DNA of 64,000 bases from Mesorhizobium sp. C432A (lineage in GTDB: Bacteria > Pseudomonadota > Alphaproteobacteria > Rhizobiales > Rhizobiaceae): NCBI RefSeq assembly GCF_030323145.1, contig NZ_CP100470.1, positions 744,001 through 808,000 of the forward strand, given 5' to 3'. Shown here piece by piece: positions 2,937-31,102 of this stretch (position 1 is its first letter; every line of letters starts with the position of its first letter). A program made the translations under genes and the position numbers. The notes under the pieces are model-generated. The model did not search any database, was not told where the DNA came from, and was given only the letters and a program-made list of their open reading frames with translations.

Positions 2937-2950
2937 TTCCCGTACGGGAA
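2937..2950. promoter_or_regulatory. Perfect 14-bp palindrome over the first xdhC start codon
   Basis: TTCCCGTACGGGAA is a perfect palindrome in the 65-base gap between xdhB and xdhC. Its last base is the A of the ATG at 2950. It could be a regulator site, or a small hairpin that affects translation of xdhC. It may equally be chance. No second copy was noticed in the window. Confidence 0.3.
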
Positions 2951-3981
2951 TGCGAAATATGAAGTCGAAAGTGCAAAGGCTCAGAGCTTTTCTCGCCAGC
3001 GCCGGCCGGCTTGCTCTGGTCGAAGTGGCCGGCACCAAAGGCTCGACCCCGCGCGAGAAGGGCGCCTTCATGCTCGTATCGCAGGCGGCGATTTTTGGCA
3101 CGATCGGCGGCGGTCAGCTCGAGTACATGGCGATCGACAAGGCGAGGCAGATGGTGGGGTCTTCACCCTCCCCCTTGTGGGGAGGGTCGGCCGGCGAAGC
3201 CGGCCGGGGTGGGGGTGCGGACGATCGTGCCAAGCCACCCCGTTTCGCTGACGCCGCCACACGGCGTCCGCTCACCGACCCTCCCCACAAGGGGGAGGGT
3301 AAAGAAGCCCGCATCGGCTTCGACGAAGTCTGCGCCACGCTTGACGTGCCGCTAGGCCCCGAGATCGGCCAGTGCTGCGGCGGGCGCGTCGAAGTCTTGA
3401 TCCGTGTCGTCGATGCCGCGCTTACTGCCGAGCTGATCGCGGCCGCAGAAGCCGAGGAAGCCCACCTGCCGCATGTCTATATCTTCGGCGGCGGCCATGT
3501 CGGCCGGGCGCTGGCCGCGACGGTAGCACTTCTTCCCGTGCATGGTGTCGTCATCGAGACGCGGGCCGAAGCGCTGGAAGGCATGCCGGAAACCGTCGAG
3601 ACGCGGCTGACGCCGATGCCCGAGGCCGAGGTGCGAAACGCCCCCGCCGGCACCGCCTTCGCCATCCTCACCCACGACCATGCGCTGGATTTCCTCATCG
3701 TCGCCGAAGCGCTGAAGCGCGACGACGCGGCCTATGTCGGCATGATCGGCTCGAAAACCAAGAGAGCGACGTTCAGGAACTGGTTCCTGAAATCGGCGGA
3801 GGGCACGGAGGCTGAGTTCGCCCGCCTCGTCTCGCCGATCGGCGGCGATGCGGTCAAGGACAAGCGCCCACCGGTCATAGCTGCGCTGGCCGCGGCCGAG
3901 ATCATGACGGCGCTGGTCGCGCACGGCGCGGCACCGGCGGTAAGCCAGCAGGCGCGGCAAGGCCAAGAGGTAGCCGGCTAA
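2950..3981 (+). CDS. xdhC: Xanthine dehydrogenase maturation factor XdhC, with an in-frame palindromic insertion
   Basis: XdhC binds molybdenum cofactor, supports its sulfuration and delivers it to XdhB. The 343 residues hold the N-terminal XdhC/CoxI region (EVAGTKGSTPREKGAF, then GTIGGGQLEY) and a C-terminal Rossmann domain (YIFGGGHVGRALA, GMIGSKTKR). Between them, residues about 72-117 (PSPLWGGSAGEAGRGG and on to DPPHKGEGK) do not look like XdhC. They are the translation of the palindromic element at 3165-3300, and removing them rejoins QLEYMAIDKARQM to a normal IGFDEVCATLDVPLGPE continuation. The start may be 2959 (MKSKVQ), since GGGA sits 9 bases before it and nothing resembles a ribosome site before 2950. 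The stop overlaps the convergent gene by 4 bases. Confidence 0.93.
   Translation: MRNMKSKVQRLRAFLASAGRLALVEVAGTKGSTPREKGAFMLVSQAAIFGTIGGGQLEYMAIDKARQMVGSSPSPLWGGSAGEAGRGGGADDRAKPPRFADAATRRPLTDPPHKGEGKEARIGFDEVCATLDVPLGPEIGQCCGGRVEVLIRVVDAALTAELIAAAEAEEAHLPHVYIFGGGHVGRALAATVALLPVHGVVIETRAEALEGMPETVETRLTPMPEAEVRNAPAGTAFAILTHDHALDFLIVAEALKRDDAAYVGMIGSKTKRATFRNWFLKSAEGTEAEFARLVSPIGGDAVKDKRPPVIAALAAAEIMTALVAHGAAPAVSQQARQGQEVAG
3165..3300. repeat. Compound palindromic element inserted in frame in xdhC
   Basis: Two 26-base arms (3165-3190 and 3275-3300) are perfect reverse complements. Each begins or ends with a GGGAGGGT-type block. Inside them lie two smaller hairpins: one around GGCCGGCGAAGCCGGCC (about 3188-3204) and one around ACGCCGCCACACGGCGT (about 3251-3267). 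The whole folds as a cloverleaf. The same architecture occurs between genes at 9929-10092, 10698-10819, 19809-19954 and 30920-31102. Here it keeps the xdhC reading frame open and adds about 45 residues. Confidence 0.9.
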
Positions 3982-5236
3982 TCTTTTTTATCCGACCGCT
4001 TCAGGCCAAGATGATCTCGCAAGGTGCTGCCTTCGTATTCCCGACGGAACAGTCCGCGCCGCTGCAGTTCCGGCACCACCAGCGTGGCAAAGGCATCGAG
4101 CTCGCCGGGGAAGTATGACGGCATGACGTTGAAGCCGTCCGCGCCGCCGCCCTCGAACCGCGCCTGCAATTCGTCAGCGATCCGCGCCGGCGTGCCGACG
4201 ATACGCCAATGGCCACGTGCGCCGGCGAAATGGCGCGCAAGCTGGCGGATCGACAGGCCGTCGCGGCGCGATTGTTGGATGACCAGCGCCTGGCGGCTTT
4301 TCATGCCCTCGGTCTCCGGCAGTTCGGGCATCGGTCCGTCGATCGGATAGCTCCCGAGATCGGAGATGCTGAGATAGCTGGACAGTAGCGCCACGCCGAC
4401 ATCGTCGGGGATCAGCGCCTGCAATTCCTCCTGTTTCTCCCGCGCTTCGGCCTCGGTGTCTGCCACCACCGGGGAGACGCCGGGCATGATCTTGATGTCG
4501 TCGGGTTCCCGCCCATAGCCCGCCATACGGCCCTTGAGGTCGTCGTAAAAGGCCTTGGCTTCCTCGAGGGTCTGCGCCGCCGTGAACACGACGTCGGCGG
4601 TGCGGGCGGCAAGGTCGCGGCCGACATCCGAGGCGCCGGCCTGCACCATCACCGGCGCGCCCTGCGGCGAGCGCGGCAGGTCGAGCGGGTCGCGCACCGA
4701 AAAGCTCTGGCCGTTGTGACCGTGAAAGCCACTGCCTTGCCAAAGTCCTGATACCACCTCGGCGAATTCGCGCGCCCGCTCGTAGCGGTCGGCATGGGGT
4801 TTCAGGCCCGTCGCGCCGAAATTGGCTGCTTCGATGGGGCTGGCCGACGTCACCAGGTTCCAGCCAGCCCGGCCACCACTCAGATGATCGAGCGACAGAA
4901 AGGTGCGCGCCAGACCGTAGGGCTCGTTGTAGCTGGTCGACGCCGTTGAAACGAGGCCGATGCGGCTGGTCTGCACGGCGAGCGCGGACAGCAGGCTGAT
5001 CGGCTCGAAGCCGATCGAGCGTGAGGTCTGGCTGGCGGTGCCGACATTGGCTTCGCGCAGACCGGCGGCGTCCTCGCAGAACACCATGTCTAACTTCGCC
5101 GCCTCCGCCGTGCGCGCCAGCCGGATGTAATGATCGATGTCGATGCCTGCCGTGACATACGCCTTGGGGTGACGCCAGGCGGCGATGTGGTGGCCCGTCG
5201 CCCACAGGAGGCGCCAAGCTTCATCTGGCGGGTCAT
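3978..5236 (-). pseudogene. NtaA/SnaA/DszA-family FMN-dependent monooxygenase, frameshifted near the N-terminus
   Basis: The frame from about 5206 down to the stop encodes a flavin monooxygenase of the nitrilotriacetate monooxygenase type: WATGHHIAAWRHP, the RIGLVSTAST core, and a C-terminal PELQRRGLFRREYEGSTL. Such enzymes use reduced FMN from a partner reductase. The natural start is the ATG at 5234-5236, which has GGAGGAG upstream and forms an ATGA overlap with the preceding gene, but that frame reads MTRQMKLGAS and ends within about 50 codons. Adding one T after GGCGCC (near 5206) gives MTRQMKLGAFLWATGHH, the family's usual opening, and makes the gene exactly 420 codons. It is a recent 1-base deletion or a sequencing error. 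The substrate is unknown. Confidence 0.85.
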
Positions 5237-6213
5237 TGCGCTCCTCCGGCAAGTCCGAGATGCGAGCGCAAGGTGGTGCCGGGATAATCCGGGCGGACGA
5301 GCCCGCGGCGCTGCAATTCCGGCAGCACGCGGCCGATGAAACCGTCAATCGCGGCAGGCGGTATTGCGATGTTGAACCCGTCGCAGCTTTGCGAGCTGAA
5401 CAATGTTTCGAGCGCGTTAGCAGCGACATCTGCGCCAACGTTCAGCAGCAGCTTGACCGCACCCGGATCGCGTCCGCAGGCCACAACGCGGCGCTTGAGA
5501 TCGTCATGGCGCGCCTTGGCGTCCTCTGTGGGTCTGTCCAGCAGGACGACATCGGCGGTGCGGGCGGCGATATCCAGGTCGGCCTCGGACAGGCCGGACA
5601 GCACCAGCACCGGCGTATCCTGCGGCGAGCGCGCGACGTTCAGCGGCCCGCGCACGGAGAAAAATTCGCCTTTGTGGTCGAGCAGGTGCATTTTTTCGGG
5701 ATCGTGGAAGCGGCCGCCGGCCTTGTCGAACAGCAGCGCGCCGGCATCCCAGCCCTGCCACAGGCGCTGAACGATGCCGATGTATTCCTGCGTGCGGCGG
5801 CGGAACACATCGTCGGAAAATCCATCCGGCCGGCTGAAATTGGCGGCTTCCCGTGGCGCCTGCGCCATGGTCGCGTGCCAGCCGGCGCGGCCATGGCTGA
5901 TGATGTCGAGCGAAGCAAAACGGCGCGCCAGATTGTACGGCTGGTGAGCCACCGTCGAGGCTGCAGCGACAAGGCCGATCCGACTTGTCACCGTCGCCAG
6001 CGCCGCCACCAAGGTCGTCGCTTCGAAAGAACTCGACCCGGCGCTGTTCGGCGCGGAATCATCGAGGACAATCATGTCCAGCCCCGCCGCTTCCGCTTGC
6101 TTGGCAAAGCCGGCCAGGTCGCTGAACCCGAGCGGCTGCCCGGAAGTAATGTTGAGCGAAACGGCAAGATGCATTGTGGCTTGCTGGTCAGTCGGCATGG
6201 GACCATCGATCAT
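5233..6213 (-). CDS. Luciferase-like (LLM class) flavin-dependent monooxygenase, short form
   Basis: A 326-residue paralogue of the monooxygenase encoded just downstream. Both share the TIM-barrel motifs TSRIGLVAAAST, SLDIISHGRAGWHATM and ARSPQDTPVLVLSG, and the tail ELQRRGLVRPDYPGTTLRSHLGL ends alike. About 100 residues present in the neighbour between the barrel core and the C-terminus are missing here: the protein runs from KLLLNVGADVAAN almost directly into DGFNIAIPP. It could be a natural short subfamily or an internal deletion. ATGs at 6213, 6198 and 6174 are all possible starts, and none has a clear ribosome site. The gene is coupled to the next by ATGA. The substrate cannot be read from sequence. 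Confidence 0.8.
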   Translation of the reverse strand: MIDGPMPTDQQATMHLAVSLNITSGQPLGFSDLAGFAKQAEAAGLDMIVLDDSAPNSAGSSSFEATTLVAALATVTSRIGLVAAASTVAHQPYNLARRFASLDIISHGRAGWHATMAQAPREAANFSRPDGFSDDVFRRRTQEYIGIVQRLWQGWDAGALLFDKAGGRFHDPEKMHLLDHKGEFFSVRGPLNVARSPQDTPVLVLSGLSEADLDIAARTADVVLLDRPTEDAKARHDDLKRRVVACGRDPGAVKLLLNVGADVAANALETLFSSQSCDGFNIAIPPAAIDGFIGRVLPELQRRGLVRPDYPGTTLRSHLGLAGGAQ

Positions 6214-10697: not shown

Positions 10698-10819
10698 GCG
10701 CTGCCCCTCATCCGCCTGCCGGCACCTTCTCCCCGTATAGTGACGGGGAGAAAGGACAAGCTCGAGCGCTGGCGATCCCCTCTCCCCGTCTTTCACGGGG
10801 TGAGGGTGAGGGGCAGCGC
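10698..10819. repeat. Compound palindromic repeat, copy 3
   Basis: It starts five bases after the UPF0303 stop. The outer arms GCGCTGCCCCTCA (10698-10710) and TGAGGGGCAGCGC (10807-10819) match perfectly. Between them lie two hairpins, TTCTCCCCGT..ACGGGGAGAA (10727-10752) and CTCTCCCCGT..ACGGGGTGAG (about 10780-10804). It may also end transcription of the gene before it. Confidence 0.85.
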
Positions 10820-15211: not shown

Positions 15212-15354
15212 AGAGACCGTTTCGAAATTCGCTCTGGCGAGTCATATGGTGGTGGTTTCGAGAACCGAAGCGCAGCGGACATTTGGTCCGTGAGCATCGG
15301 AAGCGCAGAAACCACCATCGATGGCCGCCGGAGTAGAATTTCGAAACGGTCTCT
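15212..15354. repeat. Nested inverted repeat between radical-SAM and glutamine-synthetase-like genes
   Basis: The outer arms AGAGACCGTTTCGAAATTC (15212-15230) and GAATTTCGAAACGGTCTCT (15336-15354) are a perfect 19-base inverted repeat. Inside are a second pair, TGGTGGTTT (15250-15258) and AAACCACCA (15309-15317), a direct repeat GAAGCGCAG, and a central hairpin CGGACATTTGGTCCG. The right arm touches the stop codon of the downstream-reading ligase gene (stop at 15354-15356). It is unlike the CTCTCCC family. Confidence 0.8.
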
Positions 15355-19808: not shown

Positions 19809-19954
19809 CCTTCTCCCCTTGTGGGAGAAGGTGGATCGGCGCGCAGCGCCGAGACGGATGAGGGGTGTTGAACGGATCGCCGTCGGTGCCGAGCTGGAGC
19901 ACCCCTCATCCGACCTCGCTTCGCGAGGCCACCTTCTCCCACAAGGGGAGAAGG
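19809..19954. repeat. Compound palindromic repeat, copy 4
   Basis: The 26-base outer arms (19809-19834 and 19929-19954) are perfect reverse complements, with core CTTCTCCCC. Inside are hairpins CGGCGCGCAGCGCCG and CCTCGCTTCGCGAGG and a second arm pair GATGAGGGGTG / CACCCCTCATC. This is the cleanest intergenic counterpart of the element inside xdhC: same arm length and same cloverleaf plan. Confidence 0.9.
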
Positions 19955-19990: not shown

Positions 19991-21043
19991 TCAAGCCGCC
20001 TGGCAGGCGTCAAAGCTCTTCTTCAGCCGTTCGGCGTCAAGCTCGCGGCCGATGAACACCAGCCGGCTCTCATGCTTTTCGCCGTCTTTCCAAGCGCGCT
20101 GGTGGTCGCCTTCGATGATCATGTGCACGCCCTGGATGACATAGCGCTCGTCGTCGCCCTTGAGCGCGATGATGCCTTTCAGCCGCAGGATGTTGGGACC
20201 TTCCATCTGAGTGATCTTCTCGATCCACGGGAAGAATTTCTTCGGGTCCATCTCGCCGCCGCGCAGCGACACCGACTGCACGGTCACGTCATGGATGTCG
20301 GAGGGATGCGCGTGACCGTGATGATGATGGTCGTGATCATGGTCGTGGTGATCGTGGTCGTGATCATGGTGGTCGTGATCATGATCGTGCGCCTCAAGGA
20401 AATGCGGGTCGTTTTCCAATGCGCGCGACAGGTCGAAGGCGCCGCGGTCGAGCACTTCGGACAGCGCCACGCCGGCGCGCGTGGTGCGGTGGATCCTGGC
20501 CGCCGGGTTGATGGCGCGGATGGTGGCCTCGACCTTGGCCAGTTCTTCGGGCGTCACCAGGTCGGTCTTGTTGAGCACGACGACATCGGCGAAGGCGATC
20601 TGGTCCTCGGCTTCCTTGGAATCCTTCAACCTGAGCGGCAGGTGCTTGGCGTCGACCAGAGCCACGACAGCGTCGAGTTTGGTCTTGGAGCGCACGTCGT
20701 CGTCCATGAAGAAGGTCTGCGCCACCGGCACAGGATCGGCGAGGCCGGTGGTCTCGACGACGATGGCGTCGAAGCGGCCGGGACGGCGCATCAGGCCTTC
20801 GACGACGCGGATCAGGTCGCCGCGCACCGTGCAGCAGACGCAGCCATTGTTCATTTCGTAGATTTCCTCGTCGGATTCCACGATCAAATCATTGTCGATG
20901 CCGATCTCGCCGAATTCATTGACGATGACGGCATAACGCTTGCCATGGTTTTCCGACAGGATGCGGTTGAGCAGCGTCGTCTTGCCGGCGCCGAGATAGC
21001 CGGTGAGAACGGTCACGGGGATTTGCGTCTGTGCTTCGCTCAT
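19991..21043 (-). CDS. CobW/COG0523 family GTPase (metal chaperone type)
   Basis: A 350-residue G3E-class GTPase thought to load metals, often zinc or cobalt, into target proteins. The P-loop GYLGAGKTT (about 15-23), the metal-binding CVCC (in NGCVCCTVRGD, about 75), the Walker B ETTGLADP and the NKTD guanine-specificity motif are intact, and the CobW C-terminal domain follows. Between the two domains (about 240-275) lies a long run made almost only of His and Asp, a metal-binding linker. The ATG at 21043 has GAGG seven bases upstream; the longer open frame to 21310 is spurious. No Zur or cobalamin site was recognised upstream. Confidence 0.93.
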   Translation of the reverse strand: MSEAQTQIPVTVLTGYLGAGKTTLLNRILSENHGKRYAVIVNEFGEIGIDNDLIVESDEEIYEMNNGCVCCTVRGDLIRVVEGLMRRPGRFDAIVVETTGLADPVPVAQTFFMDDDVRSKTKLDAVVALVDAKHLPLRLKDSKEAEDQIAFADVVVLNKTDLVTPEELAKVEATIRAINPAARIHRTTRAGVALSEVLDRGAFDLSRALENDPHFLEAHDHDHDHHDHDHDHHDHDHDHHHHGHAHPSDIHDVTVQSVSLRGGEMDPKKFFPWIEKITQMEGPNILRLKGIIALKGDDERYVIQGVHMIIEGDHQRAWKDGEKHESRLVFIGRELDAERLKKSFDACQAA

Positions 21044-21464
21044 ATCTTGCCTCGAAATGGCTGGGCCACGGAATTGCGGGCCGCAAGAAGGGATTGTTGG
21101 CCTGATATAGGATGTGTGCCGGCCTTTTGCACGAGGCAAACCGCCTGGGTGTTTGACCCAGGATTGACGAAGCGGATGGGTAGACCCGAGAGGCCGAGTG
21201 CGAGGGATGCCGACCATCAACGTGTCGCCGGAAACGCCTCTTCGTTGACCTGTGCTGAGCCGCGCCGCGTCAAACCGTTGCAATCGCCTTGGCGGAAACT
21301 CGTTTGTCATCTAACTGAAATAAACATCTGGCATCACCATTTCGAGCACCACAAATGCTTGCCGGCAAAGCTGTTTCGAAAGCCGGAATCTTTTGGATCG
21401 TCGATTGCCAACCGGCCGGCTGCGTCTATGCTGCACGCACCGGTACGGCCGAAGAGGGATCACC
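21044..21464. other. 421-base divergent intergenic region, CobW / MarR
   Basis: I see no convincing gene here. It must hold the promoters of both divergent genes. A perfect 7-bp hairpin, CCTGGGT-GTTTG-ACCCAGG, occupies 21144-21162, about 100 bases before the CobW start; it has no T-run, so it is more likely an operator or chance than a terminator. The part next to the MarR gene (about 21300-21370) is AT-richer than its surroundings. Confidence 0.4.
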
Positions 21465-30919: not shown

Positions 30920-31102
30920 CCTTCTCCCCGTCACTATACTGGGAGAAGGTCCCGGCAGGTGGATGAGGGGCGGCGCAAACTTCGGCGATTGATCGCCTTG
31001 GGCTTGGTAGCCGCCCCGAAATTATAGCTTATCTTTCCAAGCGTTGACGCTGCACCTCACCTGCCTGCCGGCATCCTCTCCCCGTATAGTCACGGGGAGA
31101 GG
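30920..31102. repeat. Compound palindromic repeat, copy 5
   Basis: It lies between the convergent takP-like and alcohol dehydrogenase genes. The left hairpin (CCTTCTCCCCGT..GGGAGAAGG, 30920-30949) and the right hairpin (CCTCTCCCCGT..ACGGGGAGAGG, 31075-31102) are related to each other and to copies 3 and 4. Inside, the segment CGGCAGGTGGATGAGG pairs imperfectly with CCTCACCTGCCTGCCG. It could serve as a two-way terminator. Confidence 0.8.

Follow-up and report, generated by a model that had tools for sequence, protein, structure and literature searches.

An in-frame palindromic insert in xdhC

The xanthine dehydrogenase accessory gene xdhC in the window (the whole 64-kb stretch of DNA that was analyzed) raises the question of how a long palindrome came to lie inside a conserved reading frame that it does not interrupt. 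We consider it highly likely that the segment is a non-autonomous, MITE/REP-like palindromic repeat lodged in a tolerant loop of XdhC and translated with it, and that a few such loops are repeatedly reoccupied. The features of the locus are as follows.

2950..3981, + strand: xdhC, xanthine dehydrogenase accessory protein, 343 codons plus stop (open reading frame; Pfam; TIGR02964)
3160..3300, + strand: insert relative to insert-free relatives, 141 bases or 47 codons, family A (spacer comparison and own-genome repeats)
3160..3164, + strand: left palindrome extension, TCTTC; a pyrimidine-rich, T-containing end is common among other copies
3165..3190, + strand: left arm of a perfect 26-base inverted repeat (inverted-repeat search)
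3190..3204, + strand: inner hairpin 1 (minimum-energy fold)
3205..3242, + strand: inner hairpin 2 (minimum-energy fold)
3247..3271, + strand: inner hairpin 3 (minimum-energy fold)
3275..3300, + strand: right arm of the perfect 26-base inverted repeat (inverted-repeat search)
3301..3305, + strand: right palindrome extension, AAAGA; other copies often have a purine-rich, (R)AA-like end

An earlier note on this DNA had described 136 bases with perfect 26-base inverted arms at 3165-3300, and this is what we find; past one mismatch, four further bases pair on each side, extending the palindrome to ~3160-3305. Folded as RNA, positions 3155-3310 reach -120.2 kcal/mol vs. a shuffled mean of -74.9 (z = -10.7, with 0 of 200 shuffles as good), and the minimum-energy fold contains three inner hairpins rather than the two originally described. 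A tRNA scan of the window found none, so the cloverleaf is not a recognizable tRNA, and an Rfam scan of the window at gathering thresholds gave no match. The note's description of a gene with its frame kept and otherwise intact agrees with the 343-residue ORF, which reads through the insert and retains both PF02625 (residues 16-70) and PF13478 (residues 176-318). TIGR02964 also matches the product above its cut-off in two stretches, the best covering residues 131-319.

The spacer between a KAR-ending helix and the PLGPEIGQCCGG block measures 201 bases here vs. 60 in Mesorhizobium loti DSM 2626 (L040). The in-frame addition proposed from the sequence is thus present, with a size of 141 bases or 47 codons relative to L040 rather than ~45 residues. 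It had been placed between the two domains of the protein; it does precede the Rossmann domain, but its position is inside the N-terminal part, with the PLGPEIGQCCGG block between it and that domain.

The same kind of element had also been thought to recur at four other places in the window. Palindromes do lie there (~10699-10817, 15212-15354, 19809-19954 and 30920-31101), but their sequences are unlike family A, of which no other copy was found in the 64-kb window, and none of the four is in frame with sequence that looks coding on both sides. Those at 10699-10817 and 30920-31101 are family C type palindromes (CCTCATCCGCCTGCCGGCACCTTCTCCCCGTATAG..), a type found in frame in the xdhC of L048, L082 and L083. 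The palindrome at 19809-19954 has perfect 26-base arms of a different sequence (CCTTCTCCCCTTGTGGGAGAAGGTGG) and is positioned just beyond the 3' end of the minus-strand ORF 19991-21310, presumably a CobW-type GTPase; this ORF has a P-loop and a CXCC-like motif, and tandem repeats at ~20309-20389 encode a His/Asp-rich stretch. The fourth, at 15212-15354, consists of 19-base inverted arms (AGAGACCGTTTCGAAATTC) separated by 105 bases and is unlike the GC-rich families. Elsewhere in the window, the neighboring minus-strand ORFs 3978-5438 and 5233-6213 both match PF00296 (luciferase-like monooxygenase) and have in common a 131-base stretch of 74% identity.

Family A as a genomic repeat

At E≤1e-3, with both strands and partial alignments included, the 6.02-Mb host genome has at least 93 family A matches, and at least 13 places align across all 136 bases; 40 of the 115 first-look candidates were scored, which makes these counts minimum values. 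Between 39 and 94 family A matches occur in each of 8 other Mesorhizobium genomes.

The ends of the family were analyzed in 45 aligned rows from outside Mesorhizobium xdhC, including one out-genus xdhC copy (o_L259). Beside the arms there is a pyrimidine at -3 in 43 of the 45 and a T at -2 in 40, with a purine at +1 in 42 and an A at +2 in 34. Because bases are conserved outside the arms, the true ends of family A lie a few bases beyond them, and 3301..3305 may be such an end. Of the two traits looked for in a MITE of a known IS family, family A has inverted ends; when the flanks of 44 genomic copies were inspected by eye, no target-site duplication was visible, and the ends are fuzzy. A TGGG-like common target was also considered, and the same inspection gave no such consensus.

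Arm-to-arm length in the 44 genomic copies was 1, 2 or 0 modulo 3 in 17, 18 and 9 cases, respectively. The length was 1 modulo 3 in 17 of 18 xdhC A copies, a count that is not independent since these copies are related by descent.

A rough survey of the 30 best own-genome family A loci, which reduce to 28 places because two pairs coincide, indicates how often the element lies in genes. A strict cut on frame composition passed cobN only and missed xdhC itself. A looser cut passed 12 frames at 11 loci: xdhC, cobN, a frame that begins upstream of a recG-like gene and runs into it (L023, the place also scanned as L179) and nine others. Of these nine, eight have no Pfam match; the remaining one (L028) is recognized as a permease whose domain lies downstream of the element. 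Within the limits of this survey, only xdhC and cobN stand out as clear in-gene cases among the 28 places. At L179 (G000 4547835-4547984) the family A copy lies upstream of a gene with RecG-type domains, whose open frame it lengthens on the 5' side beyond the likely start.

The paired, inverted palindromes, the large number of copies and the scarcity of copies within genes are also reminiscent of REPINs and BIMEs, and the elements could be REPINs moved by a host RAYT (Y1 HuH) transposase. PF01797, the RAYT domain, gave 0 matches in the host genome in a search whose control was positive in 5 of 14 genomes, which makes RAYT unlikely; we give this explanation very little credence. As a best guess, no surer than the toss of a coin, the elements are moved by a transposase acting in trans.

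Occupants of the xdhC site among relatives

We compared 93 xdhC loci, comprising the best 80 of 190 and 13 of 30 loci from a second search that matched 146 genomes (the other 17 were already among the 80). Of the 80, 78 are named Mesorhizobium, the exceptions being L054 and L089. Family A occupies the site in 16 loci, family B in 39 and family C in 3, with no insert or a short scar in 35. These states were assigned from patterns picked by eye, with L139 relabeled as A and L092 as B; since the query itself has an A insert and the 93 loci are its best matches, the share of A may be inflated. In all 93 loci both anchors are in the same frame with no stop between them. Outside this set, a stop occurs within the XdhC match of G014, G023, G031 and G052.

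The three families are read as distinct peptides in xdhC: ..SPSPLWGGS..DPPHKGEG.. for A, ..FSPLEGEMAAKRPEGV..FAATLPSRGR.. for B and ..APHPPAGTFSPYSDGEKG.. for C. A and B start one or two codons apart, and C is preceded by extra residues. By eye, L052, L065, L080 and L128 have nested or chimeric inserts, which suggests insertion of elements into older ones, or recombination with them. Short forms in L037 and L064, and in L196 outside the 93, resemble fused arm remnants. With other palindromes or their leftovers at the same spot in relatives, selfish DNA appears to have colonized a few protein loops repeatedly.

In pairwise comparison, a representative of A and one of B aligned with a score of 62.5, vs. 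a mean of 0.9 (sd 8.2) for 200 mononucleotide shuffles, and on this sequence evidence the two families are distant relatives. Between single representatives, C resembled neither A nor B more than shuffles did. Family B has 70 matches in the host genome, near full length at two or three places only and as arm-only matches at many places elsewhere.

The insert-free protein nearest to the window XdhC is the database entry P0032, identical to it at 287 of 292 residues and missing the 47 residues present here. P0032 retains EGK, the end of the element, as expected for in-frame loss; its source is a 1,097-base contig, and the hairpin could have been lost in assembly. In five other XdhC entries (P0003, P0008, P0011, P0012 and P0013) a long G/P-rich filler replaces part of the element, and these may be assembly errors at the hairpin.

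Turnover and origins of the inserts

For phylogenetic comparison, we constructed a flank tree from the upstream sequence (mostly xdhB) and xdhC minus the spacer. The four states require 39 changes on this tree vs. a shuffled mean of 42.6, a value as low being reached in 16 of 200 shuffles. B alone requires 22 changes vs. 30.0 when shuffled (as low in 0 of 500); B is therefore more clustered than random and partly inherited. A alone requires 16 changes vs. 15.0 when shuffled, with starred branches forcing 14. On a tree from xdhB only, with corrected labels, 38 changes are needed. There, 14 of 25 cherries differ in state (support ≥80 in 8 and under 80 in 6), and all 11 same-state cherries have support of 87 or more. 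The sisters L052 and L117, with xdhB 93.7% identical and support of 98, carry A and B; L088 and L118 (96.5%, support 99) carry none and A. Family C also adjoins B, in L083 alongside L099 and L109.

Such a pattern could arise if a single ancient insert had diverged in place into what appear to be A, B and scars, with no re-insertion. The distant relationship of A and B would fit this, as would the clustering of the xdhC A copies, which separate from genomic copies in the A tree (see below). However, well-supported sisters differ in state and C sits beside B without detectable similarity to either family; one and the same genome, that of the host, has both A and B at other places, A at the full-length ones counted above; and a single clade of xdhC B copies is rejected. 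Divergence in place fails to explain the pattern at the site and is already contradicted, and we judge it improbable.

In the first A tree, whose xdhC rows kept a few flanking bases, 16 Mesorhizobium xdhC copies fall apart from 31 genomic copies, with 1 change and in 89% of 200 bootstrap trees. In a second, strictly trimmed tree that also included copies from two other genera there are 2 changes, and neither a single xdhC clade (p-AU = 0.364) nor a single A clade including the two out-genus xdhC copies (p-AU = 0.213) is rejected; one row of this tree, o_L259, is the xdhC copy of an out-genus genome in reverse orientation and is not a genomic copy, and the counts were corrected accordingly. That every xdhC A copy is an independent insertion is unsupported, given that the copies cluster and one origin is not rejected. 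They may descend from one or a few old insertions, their scatter reflecting loss, replacement and some exchange.

For B, 32 of 38 xdhC copies (six of odd length or low score were omitted) were compared with 14 genomic rows, which represent 13 places because L296 and L310 are one. With L139 and L092 labeled as before their reassignment, a single clade for the xdhC copies was rejected (p-AU = 0.001), and starred branches force at least 3 changes. Judged from these trees, family B evidently has more than one origin in xdhC. A would appear to be the older occupant of Mesorhizobium xdhC and B a later arrival, several times over.

The scatter could also reflect homologous recombination that exchanged inserts between xdhC alleles. 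A is spread over the flank tree like random labels even though its copies cluster, and one A subtype is common to deep clades (L032, L034 and L139, in different halves of the tree), which makes some exchange between species likely. Relative to xdhB, identity in the C-terminal 560 bases also drops slightly more in cherries that differ in state (4.7) than in same-state cherries (3.0). In the 60 bases flanking the insert on either side, by contrast, the median drop is 2.3 points in the 14 differing pairs vs. 3.7 in the 11 same-state pairs, and over the closing 190 bases of the N-terminal side it is 4.6 vs. 5.3. Flank identity is not lower where states differ, so states change without a visible recombined tract beside the insert, and the tracts needed would be about as short as the element; very short ones could still be present there. 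As the general explanation of the scatter, allele swapping seems to us unlikely, though it deserves to be taken seriously.

Inserts in other genera

A family-wide search matched XdhC in 106 of 121 genomes. Among 28 xdhC loci from outside the genus, 22 have short spacers (14-31 residues) and one a long spacer (L170), and five were not read by the pattern. Six out-genus genomes, each with another genus code, form a sample chosen for split matches, and all six have spacers of 54-62 residues. Their inserts belong to family A in L188 and L191, are C-like in L189 (the gene of L170) and are of other kinds in L190, L192 and L193. All six fold stably, judging from energies taken without a shuffle comparison. 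Two of these genomes, G196 and G233, have one stop codon marked in the matched XdhC stretch.

Selection on the host protein and predicted structure

Outside the insert, the median dN/dS of xdhC is 0.164 when both members of a pair have an insert (1520 pairs) and 0.166 when neither does (633 pairs), for pairs with dS of 0.1-1 that are not independent and were labeled before the reassignment of L139 and L092. The window xdhC gives 0.14-0.19 against six relatives. By these ratios, XdhC is under similar purifying selection with or without the insert.

An AlphaFold2 model of XdhC from 30 alignment rows has a mean pLDDT of 75.4 and a pTM of 0.67. Residues 69-121 have a pLDDT under 50, which may partly reflect the shallow alignment. 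Other ten-residue blocks are mostly at 70-96, apart from 53 at residues 131-140 and 34-56 at the C-terminal end. The insert is placed between a helix (52-65) and a strand (123-130; model numbering, which is 3 below that of the ORF). The modeled fold matches 3on5 (TM 0.63) and, less well, 2we8 (0.39), and 2we7 is matched by sequence. In the model the insert is predicted to be a floppy, unstructured loop.

These results bear on the possibility that the segment belongs natively to XdhC as a functional part, either a conserved domain or an adaptive loop, and that its palindromic DNA is incidental. The segment is open and in frame, and its coding strand and frame are identical among the xdhC A copies seen, as that would predict. 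Yet close relatives have no segment or another sequence in its place, the segment is modeled without structure, and the same DNA recurs widely in the host and in other genomes. We find a native role scarcely credible.

Inserts in cobN, amidases and other proteins

Family A also lies in frame in the host cobN (L199; G000 3410476-3414171, minus strand; CobN by NF008973 and TIGR02257), which answers the earlier suggestion to look for further proteins in the genome that contain the segment. The same gene carries a second, different in-frame insert, family D, which has 78 matches in the host genome, many of them adjacent pairs on opposite strands. We compared 30 cobN loci among the matches listed (61 genomes matched), using labels from patterns picked by eye. 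Site 1 holds D in 10 loci, E in 8 and another insert in 1, with a scar in 3, none in 5 and 3 not read; the site in L321 has a short form resembling fused arm remnants. At site 2 there are 3 A, 14 D, 4 D remnants (two of which, L328 and L348, are full length by eye) and 1 C, with none or a short form in 5 and 3 not read.

Protein searches with the insert peptides alone, whose reach was limited to proteins 0.55-1.75 times the length of XdhC, returned mostly XdhC. For the A peptide, 26 of 30 matches are XdhC, the others being an amidase, a precorrin-3B synthase and two unnamed proteins. For B, 112 of the 120 matches listed (145 found) are XdhC by Pfam; the others are three hydantoinase/oxoprolinase entries, two of the uracil-DNA glycosylase family, an amidase, an acetyltransferase and one unnamed protein, families having been rechecked for seven proteins. 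In each of the three hydantoinase entries the sequence stops at the element or close to it; these proteins may be broken, or truncated where a contig stops. The amidases P0122 (A) and P0167 (B) have their inserts at one and the same place.

The proposal that a repeat element has colonized coding DNA in frame, as in Rickettsia, is therefore upheld by the relatives without the segment, the genomic repeats and the cobN copy. The segment is neither conserved in all relatives nor unrepeated in the genome, the two outcomes named in advance as contrary to that proposal.

Proposed mechanism

In the explanation that we favor, the XdhC segment is a copy of family A, a non-autonomous MITE/REP-like palindromic repeat of ~136-146 bases. 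Such elements would land widely and, within genes, persist only in the few loops where extra residues are harmless. Insertions and later internal deletions would survive only when in frame and stop-free, so that the element would be translated into ~47 loop residues, with the remainder of XdhC still under normal purifying selection; translation of the XdhC insert is probable. The XdhC loop, two CobN loops and one amidase loop would be occupied repeatedly by family A, the distantly related B, the unrelated C and others, and in-frame deletion between occupations would leave short scars. Hairpins would promote both in-frame deletion and element-in-element events, through which the occupants change. 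The loops are probably chosen by their tolerance, not by a dedicated target.

A bolder extension holds that these loops of Rhizobiaceae proteins are docking sites, in which palindromes preferentially land in or recombine with a resident palindrome, so that the loops swap families faster than the genes diverge and some inserts have gained a function. Examples would be pairing of the maturation factor with its enzyme or slowing of translation at the hairpin. We regard this as speculative and rather doubtful.

Comparison with known palindromic repeats

REPINs and BIMEs consist of two palindromic units in inverted orientation and occur in many copies. Family A likewise has inverted palindromic units and many copies, but no Y1 transposase was found in its host genome, and its copies also lie inside genes. 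RIME in Sinorhizobium and Bru-RS in Brucella are palindromic repeats of related Rhizobiales. A further such repeat, Br-REP of Bradyrhizobium, lies in 3'-UTRs and intergenic regions (PMC5082802), and the likeness of family A to all three is one of description only. In the portion of the Br-REP report available to us in-frame insertion is not mentioned, whereas family A is in frame in xdhC. Searches for literature on in-frame palindromes or insertion hotspots in Rhizobiales or Mesorhizobium found none by title or the start of the abstract, with most subscription papers outside their coverage.

Small palindromic, non-autonomous repeats that are mostly intergenic and sometimes in frame within genes, as here, include RU-1/ERIC, the Neisseria Correia element (107 bp) and Coxiella MITEs, according to the available parts of the sources (PMC2229807, PMC2759123, PMC5896051). 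Correia and ERIC/RU-1 are marked as having a target-site duplication in Table 1 of PMC2229807, in contrast to family A, with none visible; this sets them apart by description, not by sequence.

In-frame palindromic repeats are best known from Rickettsia and Wolbachia, alongside the enterobacterial, neisserial and Coxiella cases. The Rickettsia palindromic elements (RPE) and the Wolbachia elements are described, in the parts consulted, as palindromes of 100-150 bases in frame in conserved genes, at solvent-exposed areas (PMC3767692, PMC2229807). The xdhC element is similarly a genome-repeated palindrome of ~100-150 bases that lies in frame in a conserved gene and is absent from relatives. Mesorhizobium belongs to another order of Alphaproteobacteria, and its families are GC-rich with long C/G-run arms, RPE having been compared by description. 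Overall, the Mesorhizobium elements resemble RPE but differ in having several families per site and no detected Y1/RAYT gene.

Throughout a genus, peptides that derive from palindromes are annotated as XdhC and CobN sequence, which is a warning for annotation. The xdhC loci also provide natural replicates of selfish DNA adding peptides to working enzymes. In Rickettsia orthologues, different RPE groups occur at or near one place; the sections available of a paper on Rickettsia japonica weigh a hotspot against divergence, favor a common origin without excluding hotspots, and prefer divergence in place for RPE-4/6/7 (PMC3767692). In Mesorhizobium, by contrast, sister strains have different families at the same few codons, and one loop of close relatives contains distantly related and unrelated families as well as no insert at all. 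The choice between hotspot and divergence is thereby directly testable in culturable soil bacteria.
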